This document shows, piece after piece, positions 1 to 14,151 of a DNA stretch of 64,000 nucleotides (positions are counted from its first letter, which is position 1; every line of letters starts with the position of its first letter). Location of the stretch: positions 2,790,001 through 2,854,000 of the forward strand of contig NC_063071.1 of NCBI RefSeq assembly GCF_022605165.1. Reading direction: 5' to 3'. Under the pieces are notes generated by a model. It was not told the origin of the DNA. It saw nothing but the letters and a program-made list of their open reading frames with translations, and did not search any database. This stretch comes from Purpureocillium takamizusanense (taxonomy: Eukaryota; Ascomycota; Sordariomycetes; Hypocreales; Ophiocordycipitaceae). Made by a program: the position numbers and the translations under genes.

Positions 1-3000
1 GAAGAGAATGGCGCTCAGGAAGGCCAAAATCATCGCCTTGCGCTTTGACTCCTCCATTTTGTCCACCACAGTCTCCACCTGTGCCATGCTCTCGACAGCT
101 TGAACAATCATGAGAATCGGCAGAGATATTGTGTCAACAAGCTCGAAGCTATCGCCGGCATAGCAGCTCAGGTTCAGTCTAAGGACGACGTCGTTTACTT
201 GCTCCAAAAGCTGGTTAGAGTTGCTGAGCGCCTTTTGAGCCACATCTTGCGGATTTGCCACGTCATTTGCACCAAAGCCGTCAGGTATCGGCGTGCCAAA
301 ATCAATGTCAGATGCGTGACAAGCCGCCTTGGGGTCAGATTCCTGAGACGGGGCACAGTCGTGAATGCGGTAATAATCGCCCAACTTCGTCTTCGCCTTG
401 GGAACGCCGGTGTCGCTCAAGAGGTCGGCATAGAACGCACTAGATTTGTCTTCCCGTAGCGTCCAGTAGACACTTTGAGGGTAGGTCTCGTCACCCTGAC
501 CACGCTTGGAGTAGTCTGGGGGACACGGCTCTGACACGTTCTTATATCGCACGATTGGATGCTCGTCAAAACCTGGCCCCTCCGGTGGCCCCTGTGACCC
601 TGAGGGGGCGGCGCCTATCGCGGTGCCATGGCCAGATTGATCTGAGATACAGCCAATCAATGAACAATCTCGATAGCACTCGCCTTCTGTGAAGCAATAG
701 TCGCATGCGTTTTGGCGATTTGACGTTGATTCGTAAAGTTTGCAGTATTCGCAACAAGTAGTTGCCTCAGTAACGATGCAGGAAAAGTACTTGTCGCCGT
801 TTTTGTAGATGAAGTCGTGTACAGACTTATCTATGTTGTCGGCCACTGCTTTCGCATACGTTTTGAATTTGCCAGTATACCCATTGTTCATCATGTCGGT
901 GTAATTTTGGACAGATGCTGCCAGCATGCTGGACAACGCCTGGGCAATGTAGTAGCTCTTGCAATTGCTTGGAATGTTGCCGATATCTTTGTCAAGGTCC
1001 TCAATAGTCGAATATTCAGCTGTGCAAGGTGGTAGGGCTGTTGCTGGTAACGGGAAATAGTCGTCGTCATATCCCTCCTGCACGAGAAGATCCGTAATCG
1101 GTTGTAGGTCGACAGCCCAATCGACAATCCCAGCGAAGTTCAATCCCTCGTAGTACGCTGTACGGGAAGTCTTCGTATCCGAGCTCATGTACGCGACCCA
1201 CTGGTTTTCATCGTATGTCAAGATGTCCGAGTTACTATTGGTGTCATACCATGTGGTGGGTTTCACGCTATCCACGTCCCCGTTCAGAATCTCGTAGATC
1301 TCACCATCAGCGAGATACCCAGGCGCGCCAGTGCACCGCCCAGCCTTGGCTGTGGAGGCCTTGCCGCCGAAAGTGCACATAGGTCCTGTACAGCCCGGCT
1401 GCGTCATACCAAAAGAGCGGCCATAGCTAGAAACGCCAACTACAACCATGTTTGCGGGGACACCCGCCTTTGTTATCATTGCCAGAACATAGTTTGTTTC
1501 GGTAAGATTGACATGGCTCCGTAGACAACCGCCACTGGGACAGCCATCCTGACTCCATGAATTGCCGTAGTCCCATTGCCCATGTAGGTCGTACGTCATG
1601 TAAACGATGTAATCCAGGTGCTTTGCCATGTCTGCCACCGGAAAGGGACGGAGGTACCAAAACGAAGCCGGCGCCGCGATCGAGAGTGTCTTATCCTTGG
1701 GCAATTTCTCGCGAAGTGTCTTCAGTAATGAGAGATAATTGGGGCCATCCGAAGGAAATCCTGCCGGTATATCTGGAAGATCCGAAGCACCAGGATACTC
1801 CCAATCAAAGTCAACGCCATCGAGTCCGTTGTCATTGACGAACTGGACAACATTGTCCGTGAACAAGCCAACATTCTCGGGGTACATCGCCTTACGCAAC
1901 ATGTCGTACGTCTCGGGGCTCGTCGAGTATCCCCAGCCACCAAAGGAAACGACTTTCTTCAGACCAGGTATCGACAGGAATGAATCCCACTGGAGATATG
2001 TGTTGTTAATGTTTACCGCCAGGGATGGACTAATGGTCGCAAATGCCCAGTGAGCGTGTGTATATGACGAGTCGATGTTCAGTACTCGCATATTGAGGCA
2101 TGGTCGATCCCAGTTCCACGATTCATAGTACCCAATTTTGGTAAAGCTGCTTGGACCAGAGTCACCGGTCACGATTTTCGTTCCACAGTGCGAAATGCAA
2201 CCATTTTGTCCGGCTGCAGCGGTGCCCGGGTTGCCAGTTGGGCCACTGCTTTCAGTACAAAACTCTGGGGTGATTCCGCACTGGCCCCAGATATTGCAAC
2301 ACGAGTTTAGTGGGCACGGGTTCATGTCCGAGAGAGTGACTTTCGGATCAGGTTTGCTTCCCGGCTTGGTCGGTCCACAGACGGCATTCGAGACTGGAGC
2401 AGGCATTGGCACTGAGCCTGACGAGACGCATATGACAGTGCCGACTGTCAGGCGATTGCATCCGAACCATCCCCATGTGACTTTGTCATTGAAGGCGCTC
2501 AGATCCGTGGCCTTGAGTCCATTTTTGTTGGCGATGGCGTCGCATGTATCGCCAGACTGGACGGTGTACGTGGCACACGAGCCGTCTTTATTTGGCTTCG
2601 GCCGGACGTCCGGTAGCGTGCCTGCTGAGCAACAGACACGCTGGCCGACGGACAGACCGGAACACAACTTGGGATTGTTGTTGAACTTGGTGAAGTCGCT
2701 CCCAGAAATGCCGCATCTGGTAGCAAGTGAAGCGCAAGAGTCTCCAGCGATGACTGATATGACTTTGCAGTCACCGCGGGCGAAAAGACGTGAGGAGTAA
2801 GATGTGAAATTGCTCGTGCGCGAGGGTGTCGCCTCAGCAATGGAAATATTGTCCAGATGCCCCACGGTTCTGGAACCATTGATGTCAAAACAAGTAGCAT
2901 TGTTCCAAGCTGCCACAGCCTTCTGGGCCGTAACAAAGTCACCCACAGTGTCGATAACTATGCCGAACGTGTGATGTGATGTTCTTCCTTGACCACAAAT

Positions 3001-3582
3001 TTGGACAAATGTTGTCTTGGCACTAGTTTTGTATGACGCAAGGCTGTCGAGTACAGACGAAACGGTGACCTTATTGTCAATATCCGGCCCAGAATAAACC
3101 GCGACAACTATACCATTTTTGTATCCCACAACAAAGCTTTCGTCGCAAAACTTTTGAAAGTGGATTTTGACATTACTCAAAGCAGAGTCCAGATCAGAAG
3201 CAGAATGCTGACGCTGTCCAATGGCCTGGATATCCAAACTTGTAGTCTTCGTGCTTAAGGATATACCGCACGAGGTGTTTTTCTGACCAGTGACTTTATC
3301 CCCGGGTGCAGATGAGGCATTCAAGGTAGTAAAGTTTCCTGGTGAGCACGCACGCAGCTTGATATGGCTAGATGCATCGTCTAGAGGGGTGTAAATGGCA
3401 AAGTCTAGCAAGACAGGATCTTTGCAAACGTGAAGACGATCTGTCGATGTATAGACAGTCCAGTTGGAAAGGGGACCGGAGCAGGGCTGAGGACATGGCT
3501 GGAGCTGGCTATCCAGTGTATGAACTGTGGCCAAAAATCGGAACAGTAAGACAGTGTTCGCAAACGAGGACTTCAACCACAT
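1..3582 (-). CDS. class V (subgroup C) LysM/chitin-binding GH18 chitinase, 3' end beyond the window
   Basis: An uninterrupted frame runs from ATG at 3582 to base 1 (1194 codons) with no stop, so the C-terminus is outside the window. Residues 1 to about 26 form a signal peptide. A Cys-containing N-terminal module of unknown function follows. Two LysM domains lie near residues 271-316 and 331-383 (the second opens CATYTVQSGD), then a hevein-type chitin-binding domain near 420-462, then GH18 from about 480 to 830. The catalytic signature DGVDFDWEYP is at 588-597, with the proton-donor Glu at 595 (bases 1792-1821). A Cys-rich tail follows. In this family the enzyme is secreted and hydrolyses chitin; LysM-bearing members are linked to cell-wall remodelling or attack on other fungi (family knowledge). 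No intron is needed. It is divergent from the secreted-protein gene at 4369. Confidence 0.93.
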   Translation of the reverse strand, partial: MWLKSSFANTVLLFRFLATVHTLDSQLQPCPQPCSGPLSNWTVYTSTDRLHVCKDPVLLDFAIYTPLDDASSHIKLRACSPGNFTTLNASSAPGDKVTGQKNTSCGISLSTKTTSLDIQAIGQRQHSASDLDSALSNVKIHFQKFCDESFVVGYKNGIVVAVYSGPDIDNKVTVSSVLDSLASYKTSAKTTFVQICGQGRTSHHTFGIVIDTVGDFVTAQKAVAAWNNATCFDINGSRTVGHLDNISIAEATPSRTSNFTSYSSRLFARGDCKVISVIAGDSCASLATRCGISGSDFTKFNNNPKLCSGLSVGQRVCCSAGTLPDVRPKPNKDGSCATYTVQSGDTCDAIANKNGLKATDLSAFNDKVTWGWFGCNRLTVGTVICVSSGSVPMPAPVSNAVCGPTKPGSKPDPKVTLSDMNPCPLNSCCNIWGQCGITPEFCTESSGPTGNPGTAAAGQNGCISHCGTKIVTGDSGPSSFTKIGYYESWNWDRPCLNMRVLNIDSSYTHAHWAFATISPSLAVNINNTYLQWDSFLSIPGLKKVVSFGGWGYSTSPETYDMLRKAMYPENVGLFTDNVVQFVNDNGLDGVDFDWEYPGASDLPDIPAGFPSDGPNYLSLLKTLREKLPKDKTLSIAAPASFWYLRPFPVADMAKHLDYIVYMTYDLHGQWDYGNSWSQDGCPSGGCLRSHVNLTETNYVLAMITKAGVPANMVVVGVSSYGRSFGMTQPGCTGPMCTFGGKASTAKAGRCTGAPGYLADGEIYEILNGDVDSVKPTTWYDTNSNSDILTYDENQWVAYMSSDTKTSRTAYYEGLNFAGIVDWAVDLQPITDLLVQEGYDDDYFPLPATALPPCTAEYSTIEDLDKDIGNIPSNCKSYYIAQALSSMLAASVQNYTDMMNNGYTGKFKTYAKAVADNIDKSVHDFIYKNGDKYFSCIVTEATTCCEYCKLYESTSNRQNACDYCFTEGECYRDCSLIGCISDQSGHGTAIGAAPSGSQGPPEGPGFDEHPIVRYKNVSEPCPPDYSKRGQGDETYPQSVYWTLREDKSSAFYADLLSDTGVPKAKTKLGDYYRIHDCAPSQESDPKAACHASDIDFGTPIPDGFGANDVANPQDVAQKALSNSNQLLEQVNDVVLRLNLSCYAGDSFELVDTISLPILMIVQAVESMAQVETVVDKMEESKRKAMILAFLSAILF

Positions 3583-4368
3583 GATCGCGAGTTGAGATCA
3601 CTGCGACGCCAATTGACTTTGTTGAAGCTGTGAGAGAGCTCAGGTGTGTAATGCGAGGCACGGAGGGAATTTTGACGCGACCAGTGCTCACGACCAATGT
3701 CGAGTACCCTGCTTAGCGGAATATATCCAAATTCGATTTGGGTGTATTCATGTTACGTTCAGCACAATGTATGATTTGGAAGACCTAGCTCGTATCTGCA
3801 CTTGATCACATGCCACTCGCAGAAACAAGATGCAGCTGCAAGTGCCTTAGTATAGTACAGCGCTTAGACGAAGGCACAACTTCGTTGAGCATCATGTTTG
3901 CTTTACTATGGCCCGGAGGGAGGCGGGGTCTGTCTGTCACCTGCTTCGGTTTTATCCAGATGGAGGCCACCAACAGTCAACTTAAACGGGGGTAAATTTG
4001 AGAAAACGTTGTTGGGCCCAGGGGGTTGATCGAAGTTGGTGAGCTGATTTTCCATGCCAAGATAAGTCGGCCTGCAAAGGCTCACTAAGACCATTCAACA
4101 TTACTCAACTCAACCAACCTCACGGGACTTGTATCGGTAAGACGTCTAGTGAAACGTCTGGTCGTGGACGACAGTGACCTAGCAACTGGACCAGATTACA
4201 CATGCCCCATGCACCATGGCCAAGTGCTCCTCTTAAGATGCTCGGATATCGAAAATACGTTATAAGCTAAAGCAGGACGAGGCGACGAAATTGGTCAAGA
4301 CAGTCAAACTGCCACTCTGTGATTATTTTGGAGCTGCCGTCCACGTCACTGTCTAAGATTTTTCCGCC
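3583..4368. promoter_or_regulatory. shared divergent promoter region, chitinase / secreted protein
   Basis: About 790 bp separate the start codons of two divergently transcribed genes that both encode secreted products. I see no coding frame of protein-like character here. No specific operator was recognised. Confidence 0.4.
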
Positions 4369-5322
4369 ATGAAGGCCTTTATCCCTTGCCTCATAGTGCT
4401 CGGGACTTTTCTCCCTCCTGTACTTACATACGGCACCCGGGGTGCCATGGAGCGGTAAGTACACACCGCATATCTGATCCTGTGGATCATGCCCCAGCAT
4501 GACATGACTTGATGTGACTTACATAAGGTATATCTGGACTCAAGTATGGTCTACTACTATGCTTATCTTGCCGAGTTCTATACTGAGCCCGACCCTGCGG
4601 CTCGCAAAATTGGTGTTGGTTGTGTGGGCACTCGCGAGGATGGGCGGTGCACCTTCAACGAGTTCACTGAGTATATCTGGAAGCCATATCCCGAAAAGGC
4701 GGACATTCATCGCCCCAACGTGAAGATATTCACTGCTCTGGAGGATTTCCCAGCGATATCTATAGCAAACGCCTTCAATCGTATCTACAAATGGACAGGC
4801 CCTAATGGGATAGCCATTACTTACAACACGGATAATGAGCGCATCTGGGCGGGCTCGACTGACTTCTACGATGCTCTCGCTAGGGTAACGGAGCCGATTG
4901 GGACGCTCTCAAAGATGCCAATTGCGAGCAATGACCCAAAGGCAAAAGAGATCAGTCGCATCGTTAGCAAGGGAAAGACGTGTGCTGACACTCTTTATGA
5001 CCTGCGCTTTAAGGACCTGGAAGGTTTTCGCCTCAGAGCAGTGGCCATACGACTGGGCGTGGCGGGCAGCTTGATCAAAACGAACCCAGGAAGAGACACT
5101 CTGGGTCTTGTTGGCCCTTGGAAAAGTTGGGATCCGGGGGCTACAATACAGGCATTGGAAGATGACGAGAAGCAGCAGCATAAAGGCCACGACTACGCCA
5201 AACAAAACTTCAAGGACAAGCTGAATAGAGCTATCACGGCGTGGGCGAACGGCGGACAATCTGCGATCAACCACGTCAGGGCACTAGATGCTGCCAAGTC
5301 TGCTATGCAATTAAGCTGCTGA
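4369..5322 (+). CDS. secreted protein of unknown function
   Basis: Exons 4369-4454 and 4545-5322 join in phase (864 bp, 287 residues). The intron 4455-4544 has a GTAAGT donor and an AAG acceptor. The first exon supplies an N-terminal signal peptide (about residues 1-22, hydrophobic core CLIVLGTFLPPVL), which supports starting at 4369 and not at the in-frame ATG 4546. The mature part has a Tyr-rich start (MVYYYAYLAEFY), a few cysteines and no domain I recognise. It is divergent from the LysM chitinase and convergent with the ankyrin gene 178 bp downstream. Its position suggests co-expression with the chitinase (inference). I assign no function. Confidence 0.72.
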
Positions 5323-9435: not shown

Positions 9436-10358
9436 ATGACCTACTCGTCCACCTACAAGCCGCGTCCGTTCACCGACGTCTTCACGGGCGACACCGACAT
9501 CAACCGTCGCAAGTGCGGCCGCACTGTGCCCATGAAGGTGCTCATCCTTGGCCTCGGTCGCACCGGCACTGCCTGTTCGTTGCAACCCCTGGACCGCCTT
9601 GACCTTTCGTTACTGCGCGCGCTGACTCCAACGCAGCCATGCGCGCCGCCATGAAGCAGCTCGGCTACGTGGACACGTACCACATGATGAACTGCTCCAT
9701 TGAGAACCCGCCCGATGCCCTCATGTGGATGGACGCCCTGTGCGCCAAGTACGACGGCCAGGGCGTCAGGTTCACACGCGCCGACTGGGACCAGCTGCTG
9801 GGCGGCGCGCAAGCCGTGTGCGACTGGCCGGCGATTGCGTTTGCGCGCGAGCTCATCGAGGCGTACCCCGAGGCCAAGGTGGTGCTCACAAACCGCGACG
9901 TCGACTCGTGGCACGCGTCCACGATGAAAACGGTGTACTGGCGCGTCACGGACCCGGAGCTGCGCTGGCTATCGCACTTCGACTGGGCCGCCGGCATGTA
10001 CTACCCGATGCTGCGCAAGTTCTTCGACACCTTCTTCGAGGGCGACTTTCCCAACAGGGGCAAGGACGTGTTCCGCAGGCACTACGCCGAGGTGCGCAGC
10101 CTGGTGCCCAAGGAGCGGCTGCTTGAGTACCGCGTCACGGACGGCTGGGGCCCGCTGTGCGAGTTTCTCGGCGAGCCGGTGCCCAAGGGGTGCGCGTTCC
10201 CCAACGTCAATGACAACTCGGACTTTGTGACGCGGTCGCGTCGTCGGAACAGGAGCCAGATGTACAACGTGGCGCTGCGGTACCTGGTGTGGATGGTGGT
10301 TGGGCTGCTCATGTTTGTGGCTCTCCGGCGGCTGCTGGTCATGTACCAGCTCGTCTAA
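9436..10358 (+). CDS. fungal sulfotransferase-family (P-loop) protein with C-terminal membrane anchor
   Basis: Exons 9436-9574 and 9637-10358 (861 bp, 286 residues). The 62-bp intron (GTTCGT donor, CTGAC branch, CAG acceptor) falls inside the nucleotide-binding motif. Splicing restores GLGRTGTASMRAAMKQLGY near residues 39-57, which supports the model. Later blocks DWDQLL, CDWPAIAFARELI and VVLTNRDVDSWHAS are typical of the fungal Sulfotransfer_4 group, often annotated as NAD-dependent epimerase-like or sulfotransferase-like. A hydrophobic helix near residues 262-282 suggests a tail anchor. The family fold binds PAPS in true sulfotransferases; the substrate here is unknown. The start is set by a good context (GCCGCCATGAC). 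Confidence 0.85.
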
Positions 10359-11354: not shown

Positions 11355-12363
11355 CTATACCAATGGCCGAAGCAGAGAGGGACTAGTGGGTATCATCCTG
11401 GAGCGACTCCAGTCCTCTATCGAACTCCACTTCACACACACAGCCTTCGAGTTTGATTGCGTATCTGGTCGCGGCGCTGTTGGATCATTCCACGCAAATG
11501 AATAGAGCCCTGTATTCCCATGGCACATGATGGTCAGGCGGAGGGTTTCCAGGCAATGATCTGTACCGGCAGCGCTTAGTATCAGAGAATGAACTGTTGT
11601 TTAGGGACGAGGGACATAGGATATCTACTGACCCAGATGTCCGTGAAGATAACGTTCTTGGGCTTCTGTAAGGTTTGGGTAATAACGCTGCTGGAAAAGA
11701 TGGAATCGTAATTGTCGCTGCGTTGAGTCAGTCAAGGTTCCCTGATACGACTAGGAGAGCGCGTACCAAACAATGCAGCTCGTGATACACGCCGAGAGAG
11801 GCGGGGTATCCTCCATCTGTCAGTTCAGCCAACTTCACCATCGATTCTCCTGCCCGTTGGAGTTCCTCGAGAGTTGCATTGAAATAAACCGCTGTAGTGT
11901 TGTCAGTCACGATCAACAGTAGGGACGGGCCGCGTACGCCTGATCAAAGTCTCCCAAGCAGCATCCTGTTCCACAGATGGTGGCCCAGAATACTCGCTAT
12001 ATTTATGGTGGTCTGTTGCATGGTTTGCGTTGATTTCGTACTGCACATGTCGCTGAATGGGAGCTAGTGAAATATGAGTGTAAGGAGGGTATATAGTAGC
12101 TGGGCCTGCTTACACCAAGTGCGACCGTCCGTGGACACAGCACAAGCCCCTGGGTCCTGACACCTCGACAGCATAACTATGGAAGCAATGCAGAACACAT
12201 GAAGAATGAGGATGTACAGTCGTGCCCAAGTAAAAGTGCCTGTCAGACCGGACCTCTTTGTCGGCGTGAATGGTTCGCCCCCTACAGTCTTACCGGTGAG
12301 TTGTTCCAACTCGTCGTCATCCGTGAAGCTGTTATTTCGCGACAGGAACCGAAGCAGAGCCAT
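11355..12363 (-). CDS. UstYa-like (DUF3328) protein, putative RiPP/mycotoxin tailoring oxidase
   Basis: Five exons: 12363-12114, 12063-11938, 11891-11767, 11717-11633 and 11560-11355 (792 bp, 263 residues). The four short introns (46-72 bp) keep phase. A membrane helix lies near residues 48-66. Splicing yields the family landmarks in order: WSPIQRHVQYE, YSGPPSVEQDAAW, then the two HxxHC motifs HELHC (162-166, followed by LRQLR) and HLDHC (194-198, followed by LETLR). In the ustiloxin, asperipin and cyclochlorotine pathways UstYa-family proteins carry out oxidative modification or cyclisation of peptides, and both HxxHC motifs are required (family knowledge). The gene is divergent from a Kex2-repeat precursor 546 bp away, which argues for a role on that peptide (inference). 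All key residues are present. Confidence 0.92.
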
Positions 12364-12909
12364 TGCGAGTGGGATGTAGAGACGAGATGAAAATCAACCG
12401 AGAAAGTGATGAGCTTGAGTGTTCAAAACTGATGTGCTACACTGTCCGCTCGAAAGCTGCCGTGGATCGTTGCTCCAGCAGTCAAGCTTCAAGCTGATAA
12501 GGGATGTGGAAGCACCAGAGATAACGCACGCACGGCTTCCATCCATTCCCAGTATGTTTCGGATCGGGTTGTGAAACAGGCGGGTCAGACAACGCCTCGA
12601 GGTCGTAACGCATCACTTACAAGTCAGTGATCTGCGAGGGACACGAGTGAGACGTGGCGCAAATGATAGAAAAATCAAATACTATAGATGGGATGAAATG
12701 TCGGTGAGAAGATTGAGTGAAGAGGGTAAAGATGAATCAATAAGCTATGTCGTGACAGGACCTTCTGTGCCGAGGTACATGTATCCAGTAGTATATATAT
12801 ATGTGTCTGCGCTTTGCGATAGCTCACCCTCTATCCGCAGTGTCAAATCAAATCTACCAAACCGCAAGGAAAGTTACAACTATCCTACCCTCCGCAAGTC
12901 AACTTCAAA
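12364..12909. promoter_or_regulatory. bidirectional promoter of the RiPP-like pair
   Basis: The 546 bp between the divergent start codons contain a TATA-like run (TATATATATATG, 12792-12803) about 107 bp upstream of the precursor ATG. A shared promoter would let enzyme and substrate be co-expressed. No pathway-specific operator was recognised. Confidence 0.5.
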
Positions 12910-13277
12910 ATGCATTTCACGAAAGTCTCGATTGCAGCGATTTCGCTGCTCATCGGCTCAGTTGTGGCAATTCCTCTTCCAACACGTAAGACGCACCAGA
13001 GCTTCTGCAATCCGGCTTTGACATATACAATATAGCTTTGAAACATGCTCGTGGTGACGAAAGGCCCGTCGCGGAAGGTGTCCAGGGCGAGGCCACTGTC
13101 TTCAAGCGTGCTGATGACAAGCCCGTCGCGGAAGGGGTCCAGGGCGAGGCCACTGTCTTCAAGCGTGCTGATGACAAGCCCGTCGCGGAAGGTGTCCAGG
13201 GCGAGGCCACTGTCTTCAAACGTGCAGATAATAGGCCCGGTGCGGCGGGTGCAGAGGAAGTGGGCGGACTGTACTAG
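12910..13277 (+). CDS. secreted Kex2-processed repeat precursor (ustiloxin-type RiPP precursor candidate)
   Basis: Exons 12910-12985 and 13036-13277 join in phase (318 bp, 105 residues). The 50-bp intron has a GTAAGA donor and a TATAG acceptor. Residues 1 to about 20 (MHFTKVSIAAISLLIGSVVA) form a signal peptide. After a short leader come four consecutive units of exactly 17 residues: GDERPVAEGVQGEATVF, ADDKPVAEGVQGEATVF twice, and a divergent ADNRPGAAGAEEVGGLY that ends at the stop. The first three are each followed by Lys-Arg, the Kex2 site. Each unit ends in its only aromatic residue (Phe, Phe, Phe, Tyr). This architecture matches precursors of fungal dikaritin-type RiPPs, and a UstYa-like gene is adjacent. 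The mature product and its modifications are inference. There is no Cys or Trp, unlike alpha-type pheromone precursors. Confidence 0.85.
13056..13271 (+). repeat. 57-bp coding tandem repeat (3 near-identical copies plus a diverged 45-bp partial)
   Basis: Copies at 13056-13112, 13113-13169 and 13170-13226 differ at only a handful of bases; 13227-13271 is diverged. Such near identity points to recent homogenisation by unequal exchange or slippage inside the precursor gene. Confidence 0.9.
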
Positions 13278-14151
13278 CTAGTCCACGGCAAGCCCGTCGG
13301 TTCAGAGAAACCCACCCGGCCAATGAAAGCATCACGGTGCCAACTTGTTTTGAAAGCTCCGTTACTAGCTCTGTAGTCGAAAAGTAACATGCAACTCCAT
13401 ATACGGTCCAGCCGTGCGTACGAAACCTGTCATAGAATGCGAGGGCTAGTCGCTCACCCTAGAGGGTATGGTTTGATGAGAATGCAAGGTGTCGTGTTAG
13501 TTTGACAAAACCTCCTGATTTCCTAGTTTCATTTGACTGGGACAATCTGTTCAAGGAGGGCAGTCAATATCCGCTGTGCTTCTGGCATATTAGACTTTCA
13601 GTGTTCGCATGGCTCGCACATTGATACTGTCGCAACTCTTACCCCAGGTGGCCGAAGACGATAGCGCTGTGCGACACGTGAATCACATTGGGTAGCAAGC
13701 AGCGTAAATATGTAACGAGTCCCATTTCACCTTGTGTTAGACGAACATGGCCTGGAGTCCGTCGTAGTAGCAGTGTTCACAACTAAACACCGTATTGCAA
13801 TGACTCACGTGCAAATGCTGAGACGTGGCAATGTCTAAGTCAAAATTTCCTGCATCTGCAACCCCAACGGCGAACAAGCGGTGAGAACCGTGTCGCGTGC
13901 TGATGGTTTGGGACGCTCATTCATTATGTGGGTGAGCTTGTGTCCGCTGCAATCATCGCTCGCCACTCCAAGTCGGTCTCATGGCAGTTATGTTGCGACA
14001 ATGCATAGTAACTCTCTATGTACTGACCTTCAGAAGCGTTGGGAAACTATAACAGACACACGACGAGCCATGATAAAATCCAACCTTGCCTTCTTCATCC
14101 CACGGTAGCAGGAACAAAAATCGGACACGTCAATCCTTCCTTGACTCTCGA
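13278..14151. other. intergenic, no gene seen
   Basis: About 870 bp between the precursor and the GNAT gene. Neither strand holds a recognisable exon or a second UstY HxxHC motif. Confidence 0.4.

Follow-up and report, generated by a model that had tools for sequence, protein, structure and literature searches.

When a UstYa-like gene lies beside a short gene for a Kex2-split repeat precursor whose repeats lack Tyr, do the two form a RiPP pathway, and of what type? In the 2020 survey, which defines a KEP by at least three tandem repeats of at least 8 aa between dibasic sites, 1,758 of 7,878 KEPs had a UstYa gene among their 15 nearest genes, and the count peaked at the adjacent gene (PMC7329392); against these 1,758 predicted pairs, a 2022 review counts five chemically known dikaritins (PMC10512285). 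We examined one such pair in Purpureocillium takamizusanense, within a 64-kb stretch of DNA (C4:2790001-2854000; hereafter the window), and conclude that it is probably a compact dikaritin-type (KEP plus UstYa) RiPP locus, in which UstYa would oxidize the repeated core of the precursor.

The original prediction had placed a UstYa-like gene divergent from a Kex2-repeat precursor at 11355..13277, and splice models of both genes reproduced this arrangement. The UstYa/DUF3328 gene spans 11355..12363 on the minus strand and encodes 263 aa in five exons (plus-strand coordinates 12114-12363, 11938-12063, 11767-11891, 11633-11717 and 11355-11560) joined at GT..AG introns. The PF11807 profile matched the spliced protein at E=4e-44 with 151.5 bits (cut-off 25). 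Both predicted HxxHC motifs were present, HELHC at residue 162 and HLDHC at residue 194, the second being encoded across a splice junction, and hydropathy placed a single hydrophobic helix near residues 47-65. Database comparison yielded 105 relatives among 645 candidates (E<=0.001; 29-66% identity), most of them from Sordariomycetes by their names, including proteins of Hypomontagnella monticulosa (58%), Trichoderma velutinum (57%) and Ophiocordyceps unilateralis (66% over 73% of the length). Alignment of 16 of these 105 relatives showed the motif His and Cys residues to be invariant or at least 90% conserved. No Purpureocillium name appeared among the named relatives shown, several matches being nameless and records resembling the genome itself possibly left out. 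P. lavendulum is represented in the protein database (a helicase of the window was 91% identical, others at most 82%, among the best 120 of 492 matches listed), and an absence of UstYa from the sister species is only suggested by these matches. A search of viral contigs with the UstYa profile returned no relatives, and the search for solved structures gave one chance match at E=0.5.

The precursor gene lies head to head with UstYa on the plus strand. The start codons are separated by a shared intergenic stretch of 546 bp (12364..12909), in which a TATA-rich element at 12792-12802, 108-118 bp upstream of the precursor ATG, would serve as a promoter. Two exons (12910-13277, ATG at 12910) encode 105 aa. 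Exon 1 (12910..12985) carries a putative signal peptide (about MHFTKVSIAAISLLIGSVVA), assigned by hydropathy only (2.66 over 11 residues from residue 11, a weak test), and the start of the leader; a predicted 50-nt intron follows (12986..13035), bounded by GTAAGA and TATAG and containing a CTTTGAC branch-site-like stretch; exon 2 (13036..13277) contributes the leader LKHAR, four units and the stop codon at 13275-13277. Splicing alone joins the signal sequence to the repeats. The units are unit 1, GDERPVAEGVQGEATVF (13053-13109 including KR), units 2 and 3, ADDKPVAEGVQGEATVF (13110-13166 and 13167-13223, each including KR), and a divergent unit 4, ADNRPGAAGAEEVGGLY (13224-13274). A signal peptide followed by four 17-residue units split by Lys-Arg had been predicted, and this was confirmed with refinements: we found the signal-peptide-like start, three near-identical units and three Lys-Arg sites, but unit 1 is preceded by HAR rather than a dibasic site, and unit 4 retains only 5 of 17 residues, lacks ATVF and ends in Tyr. 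Any two of units 1-3 share 14-17 of their 17 residues, and all three end in ATVF, with Phe directly before Lys-Arg; only two base changes, both synonymous, separate unit 2 from unit 3. Units 1-3 contain no Tyr or Trp, and the repeats no Cys or Trp.

At the DNA level the repeats form a 57-bp tandem array of 3.2 copies with 93% matches. A chance repeat was ruled out by the TRF score of 311 together with the KR-17-KR-17-KR pattern, which a six-frame search of the window found in the precursor and nowhere else. Repeat-like text continues in frame past the stop codon (13278-13340; the TRF row reaches 13299). This stretch is probably a faded further unit of an array that was once longer, and the array appears, from its sequence, to be decaying at its 3′ end. 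G+C by codon position (0.72, 0.46, 0.58) gave no independent sign of coding. The precursor had no Pfam match, no relatives at E<=1 among 2,823 candidates or in viral contigs and no second copy in the assembly, and its four core strings were not found in the literature searched. That the repeat yields a new product, as originally suggested, is plausible but unproved. Cores of ascomycete alpha-type pheromones contain Trp/Cys. A pheromone precursor was ruled out by repeats without either residue and by the UstYa neighbour, almost all pheromone KEPs of the 2020 survey being without one (PMC7329392). The RiPP candidate of a Trichoderma paper (PMC7099791), as far as described there, is unrelated.

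The same genome offers parallels. Searching the whole assembly (35,574,015 bases, 14 contigs) gave 35 exon-level PF11807 matches, one of them in the window, and 16 stretches of 10 kb around other UstYa matches were compared. KEPs were present in eight of the 16 (L035, L036, L037, L039, L040, L041, L043 and L046), seven by a scan for dibasic-delimited repeats and L040 by a looser scan; the remaining eight showed none by either scan, both of which would miss intron-split or divergent-unit KEPs. Left out of this count were further frames of those KEPs (L035, L036, L039, L043) and chance rows that were short or rich in Arg (L035, L045 and three in L051). A permissive script produced signal-peptide gene models for seven of the eight KEPs, all except L039: in four an intron separates the signal peptide from the repeats, as it does in the window precursor (L035, L040, L041, L043), and three are unspliced (L036, L037, L046). 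The head-to-head layout recurs in L039, L043 and L046. Over matched pieces, UstYa proteins in seven of the eight stretches are about 23-41% identical to that of the window; L046 gave no match at E<=1e-3. All eight repeats contain Tyr, and five (L036, L037, L040, L041, L043) also contain Trp. Example cores are AEPDRHQAYI, in 12 similar segments (L035), and SPDxLYNNQAGWG, in six (L036). The first 10 kb of C9, at a contig end (L040:1-10000), holds four UstYa match groups and one KEP whose core contains Tyr and Trp. P. takamizusanense PT3 is an entomopathogen (PMC9302088), and by their sequences these eight loci represent a rich predicted dikaritin-type repertoire in it.

A Pfam scan of the surroundings covered 245 open frames of at least 85 aa (136 in window positions 1-32000 and 109 in the adjoining 20 kb on the left), a design that misses genes made solely of exons below 85 aa, as it did the UstYa gene itself. 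At E<=1e-4 it found 24 families, all from 112 of the frames, the other 133 having none. Tyrosinase, P450, peptidase and small-molecule methyltransferase families were all absent from the 245 frames, one SET domain being present, and PF11807 matched nowhere else in the window, in agreement with the predicted lack of a nearby tyrosinase, P450, methyltransferase or second UstY. Neither repeat scan found a further KEP in the window or the 20 kb flanking it on the left; the looser one returned two frames of the precursor and four low-complexity rows in the window, the latter not counted. The families present were LysM/GH18 chitinase, ankyrin, sulfotransferase, chromate transporters, arylsulfotransferase, pyridine-nucleotide oxidoreductase, bZIP, GNAT, PLD, SET and pieces of MFS. 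A LysM/GH18 chitinase open frame lies on the minus strand at window 1-5322, beside a frame without Pfam match (4513-5322). A Sulfotransfer_4 protein is encoded roughly 1 kb away from the UstYa end (9603-10358), and the scanned frames include an arylsulfotransferase family match; these two are possible but unproved tailoring genes. Such minimality is not unusual: the asperipin-2a cluster has one UstY gene (PMC12048977), and four of the eight other KEP stretches (L039, L041, L043, L046) show only one UstYa gene each over their 10 kb.

These observations allow us to propose how the pair could work. We infer that the precursor is expressed and would enter the ER through its signal peptide. By analogy with CctR, UstYa would be anchored in the membrane, carry two coppers and oxidize the repeated core inside the secretory lumen, either before or after Kex2 cleavage. 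Kex2 would cut after Lys-Arg and a Kex1-like carboxypeptidase would remove the basic residues, so that three near-identical 17-mers ending in ATVF are set free. Because units 1-3 lack Tyr, Tyr-ether chemistry is, going by their sequence, excluded for them. With neither Tyr nor Trp in the repeat, the terminal Phe or a C-H of the neighbouring Val/Thr would be the most likely target, undergoing victorin-like ring closure or hydroxylation/desaturation; we rank these positions highest, and choosing among them is a guess.

Does the evidence favour this proposal over its rivals? The reading of the two genes as a KEP/UstYa pair is backed by the PF11807 match with both HxxHC motifs, the precursor anatomy and the parallel KEPs in eight of 16 UstYa stretches; the orphan precursor, the decaying end of its array and the absence of Tyr, present in all eight other KEPs, weigh against a dikaritin-type assignment. 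One rival accepts a true KEP whose peptides stay linear, as signals or effectors, and assigns the neighbouring UstYa to another pathway. It draws weight from the 2020 survey, where most KEPs (6,120 of 7,878) lacked a UstYa gene within their 15 nearest neighbours (PMC7329392), from the Tyr- and Trp-free repeat, and from the wide spread of the UstYa clade, for which no conserved precursor could be detected. We nevertheless regard it as unlikely, since here UstYa is immediately adjacent and divergent, KEPs occur in half of the 16 other UstYa stretches compared from this genome, and no other biosynthetic core gene was found in the 245 frames nearby. That the pair is instead a remnant in decay, whose precursor no longer yields a product, seems to us very improbable: the UstYa reading frame is uninterrupted, its introns have GT..AG ends and both motifs are present, the precursor retains its signal sequence, intron and open frame, and units 1-3 keep identical ATVF-KR ends, the second and third differing only synonymously. 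What speaks for decay is the erosion of unit 4, the repeat-like text beyond the stop codon and the lack of any precursor relative at E<=1.

The dikaritin-type reading thus remains our preferred one, with one qualification. No precursor relative was found while UstYa relatives are widespread, and the link between enzyme and substrate therefore rests on adjacency. The UstYa clade is older than its visible partnership with the precursor, and may have another substrate. A widespread UstYa with an undetected precursor may reflect fast turnover, unannotated short genes or no functional link. More speculatively, and with low confidence, a UstYa clade across Sordariomycetes could act on ribosomal cores free of Tyr and Trp, oxidizing the C-terminal Phe or its aliphatic neighbour, with fast-changing precursors missed by homology searches; this would make a second, Phe-type dikaritin branch besides victorin.

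Little about the locus is without precedent when its traits are taken singly. The arrangement of a KEP with UstYa is a described class. Because asperipin-2a has a one-UstYa cluster (PMC12048977), the 2020 survey counts 2,560 KEPs without a homologue, and the repeats of its UstYa-neighboured KEPs contain Tyr in 65.6% of cases, leaving about a third without (PMC7329392), neither the minimality, the orphan core nor the absence of Tyr is unprecedented alone. The one notable trait is the Tyr-free, Phe-ended core, and its unusualness is modest. A one-enzyme pair with such a core would cleanly test what else UstYa enzymes can oxidize, and the eight Tyr-containing pairs of the same genome are built-in comparisons.

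How, then, does the locus compare with known systems? With its putative KEP precursor and adjacent UstYa it belongs to the dikaritins in the broad sense only, in which UstYa is the class-defining enzyme; the narrower 2015 sense adds tyrosinase, methyltransferase, several UstYa and a transporter or peptidase (both as reported in PMC12048977), of which the 245 frames showed only MFS transporter pieces and the window a single PF11807 gene. Like ustiloxin, phomopsin and asperipin-2a, it combines a predicted signal peptide, Kex2-split repeats and an adjacent UstYa with two HxxHC motifs; unlike them, it has a repeat without Tyr and showed no tyrosinase, peptidase or second UstYa. The label 'ustiloxin-type' in the original prediction is not supported on this point: the rings of those three products are closed through Tyr (PMC7329392), one survey calls the conserved Tyr essential for ustiloxin and phomopsin cyclization (PMC6339444), and here only the divergent unit 4 carries Tyr, at its end. 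The eight other KEP/UstYa loci of this genome share the gene anatomy and proximity, three of them also the divergent layout, and differ in having Tyr in all repeats. UstYa homologues of the phomopsin pathway also desaturate residues (PMC10512285). CctR, a DUF3328 cyclochlorotine hydroxylase, resembles the window UstYa in its HxxHC..HxxHC motifs and single N-terminal membrane helix; it associates with the membrane, is dimeric, contains two coppers, depends on O2 and cannot do without its HxxHC residues, their change abolishing activity (PMC12435403). Unlike the substrate proposed here, that of CctR is a non-ribosomal cyclic peptide. By analogy, the closest precedent for a Tyr-free, Phe-ended core is victorin of Cochliobolus victoriae, likened here by description rather than sequence and differing in that no peptidase gene was found near our locus: its ring joins the side chain of the C-terminal Phe to an internal Leu (PMC9233826), and Phe is also the residue on which the core in the window ends.
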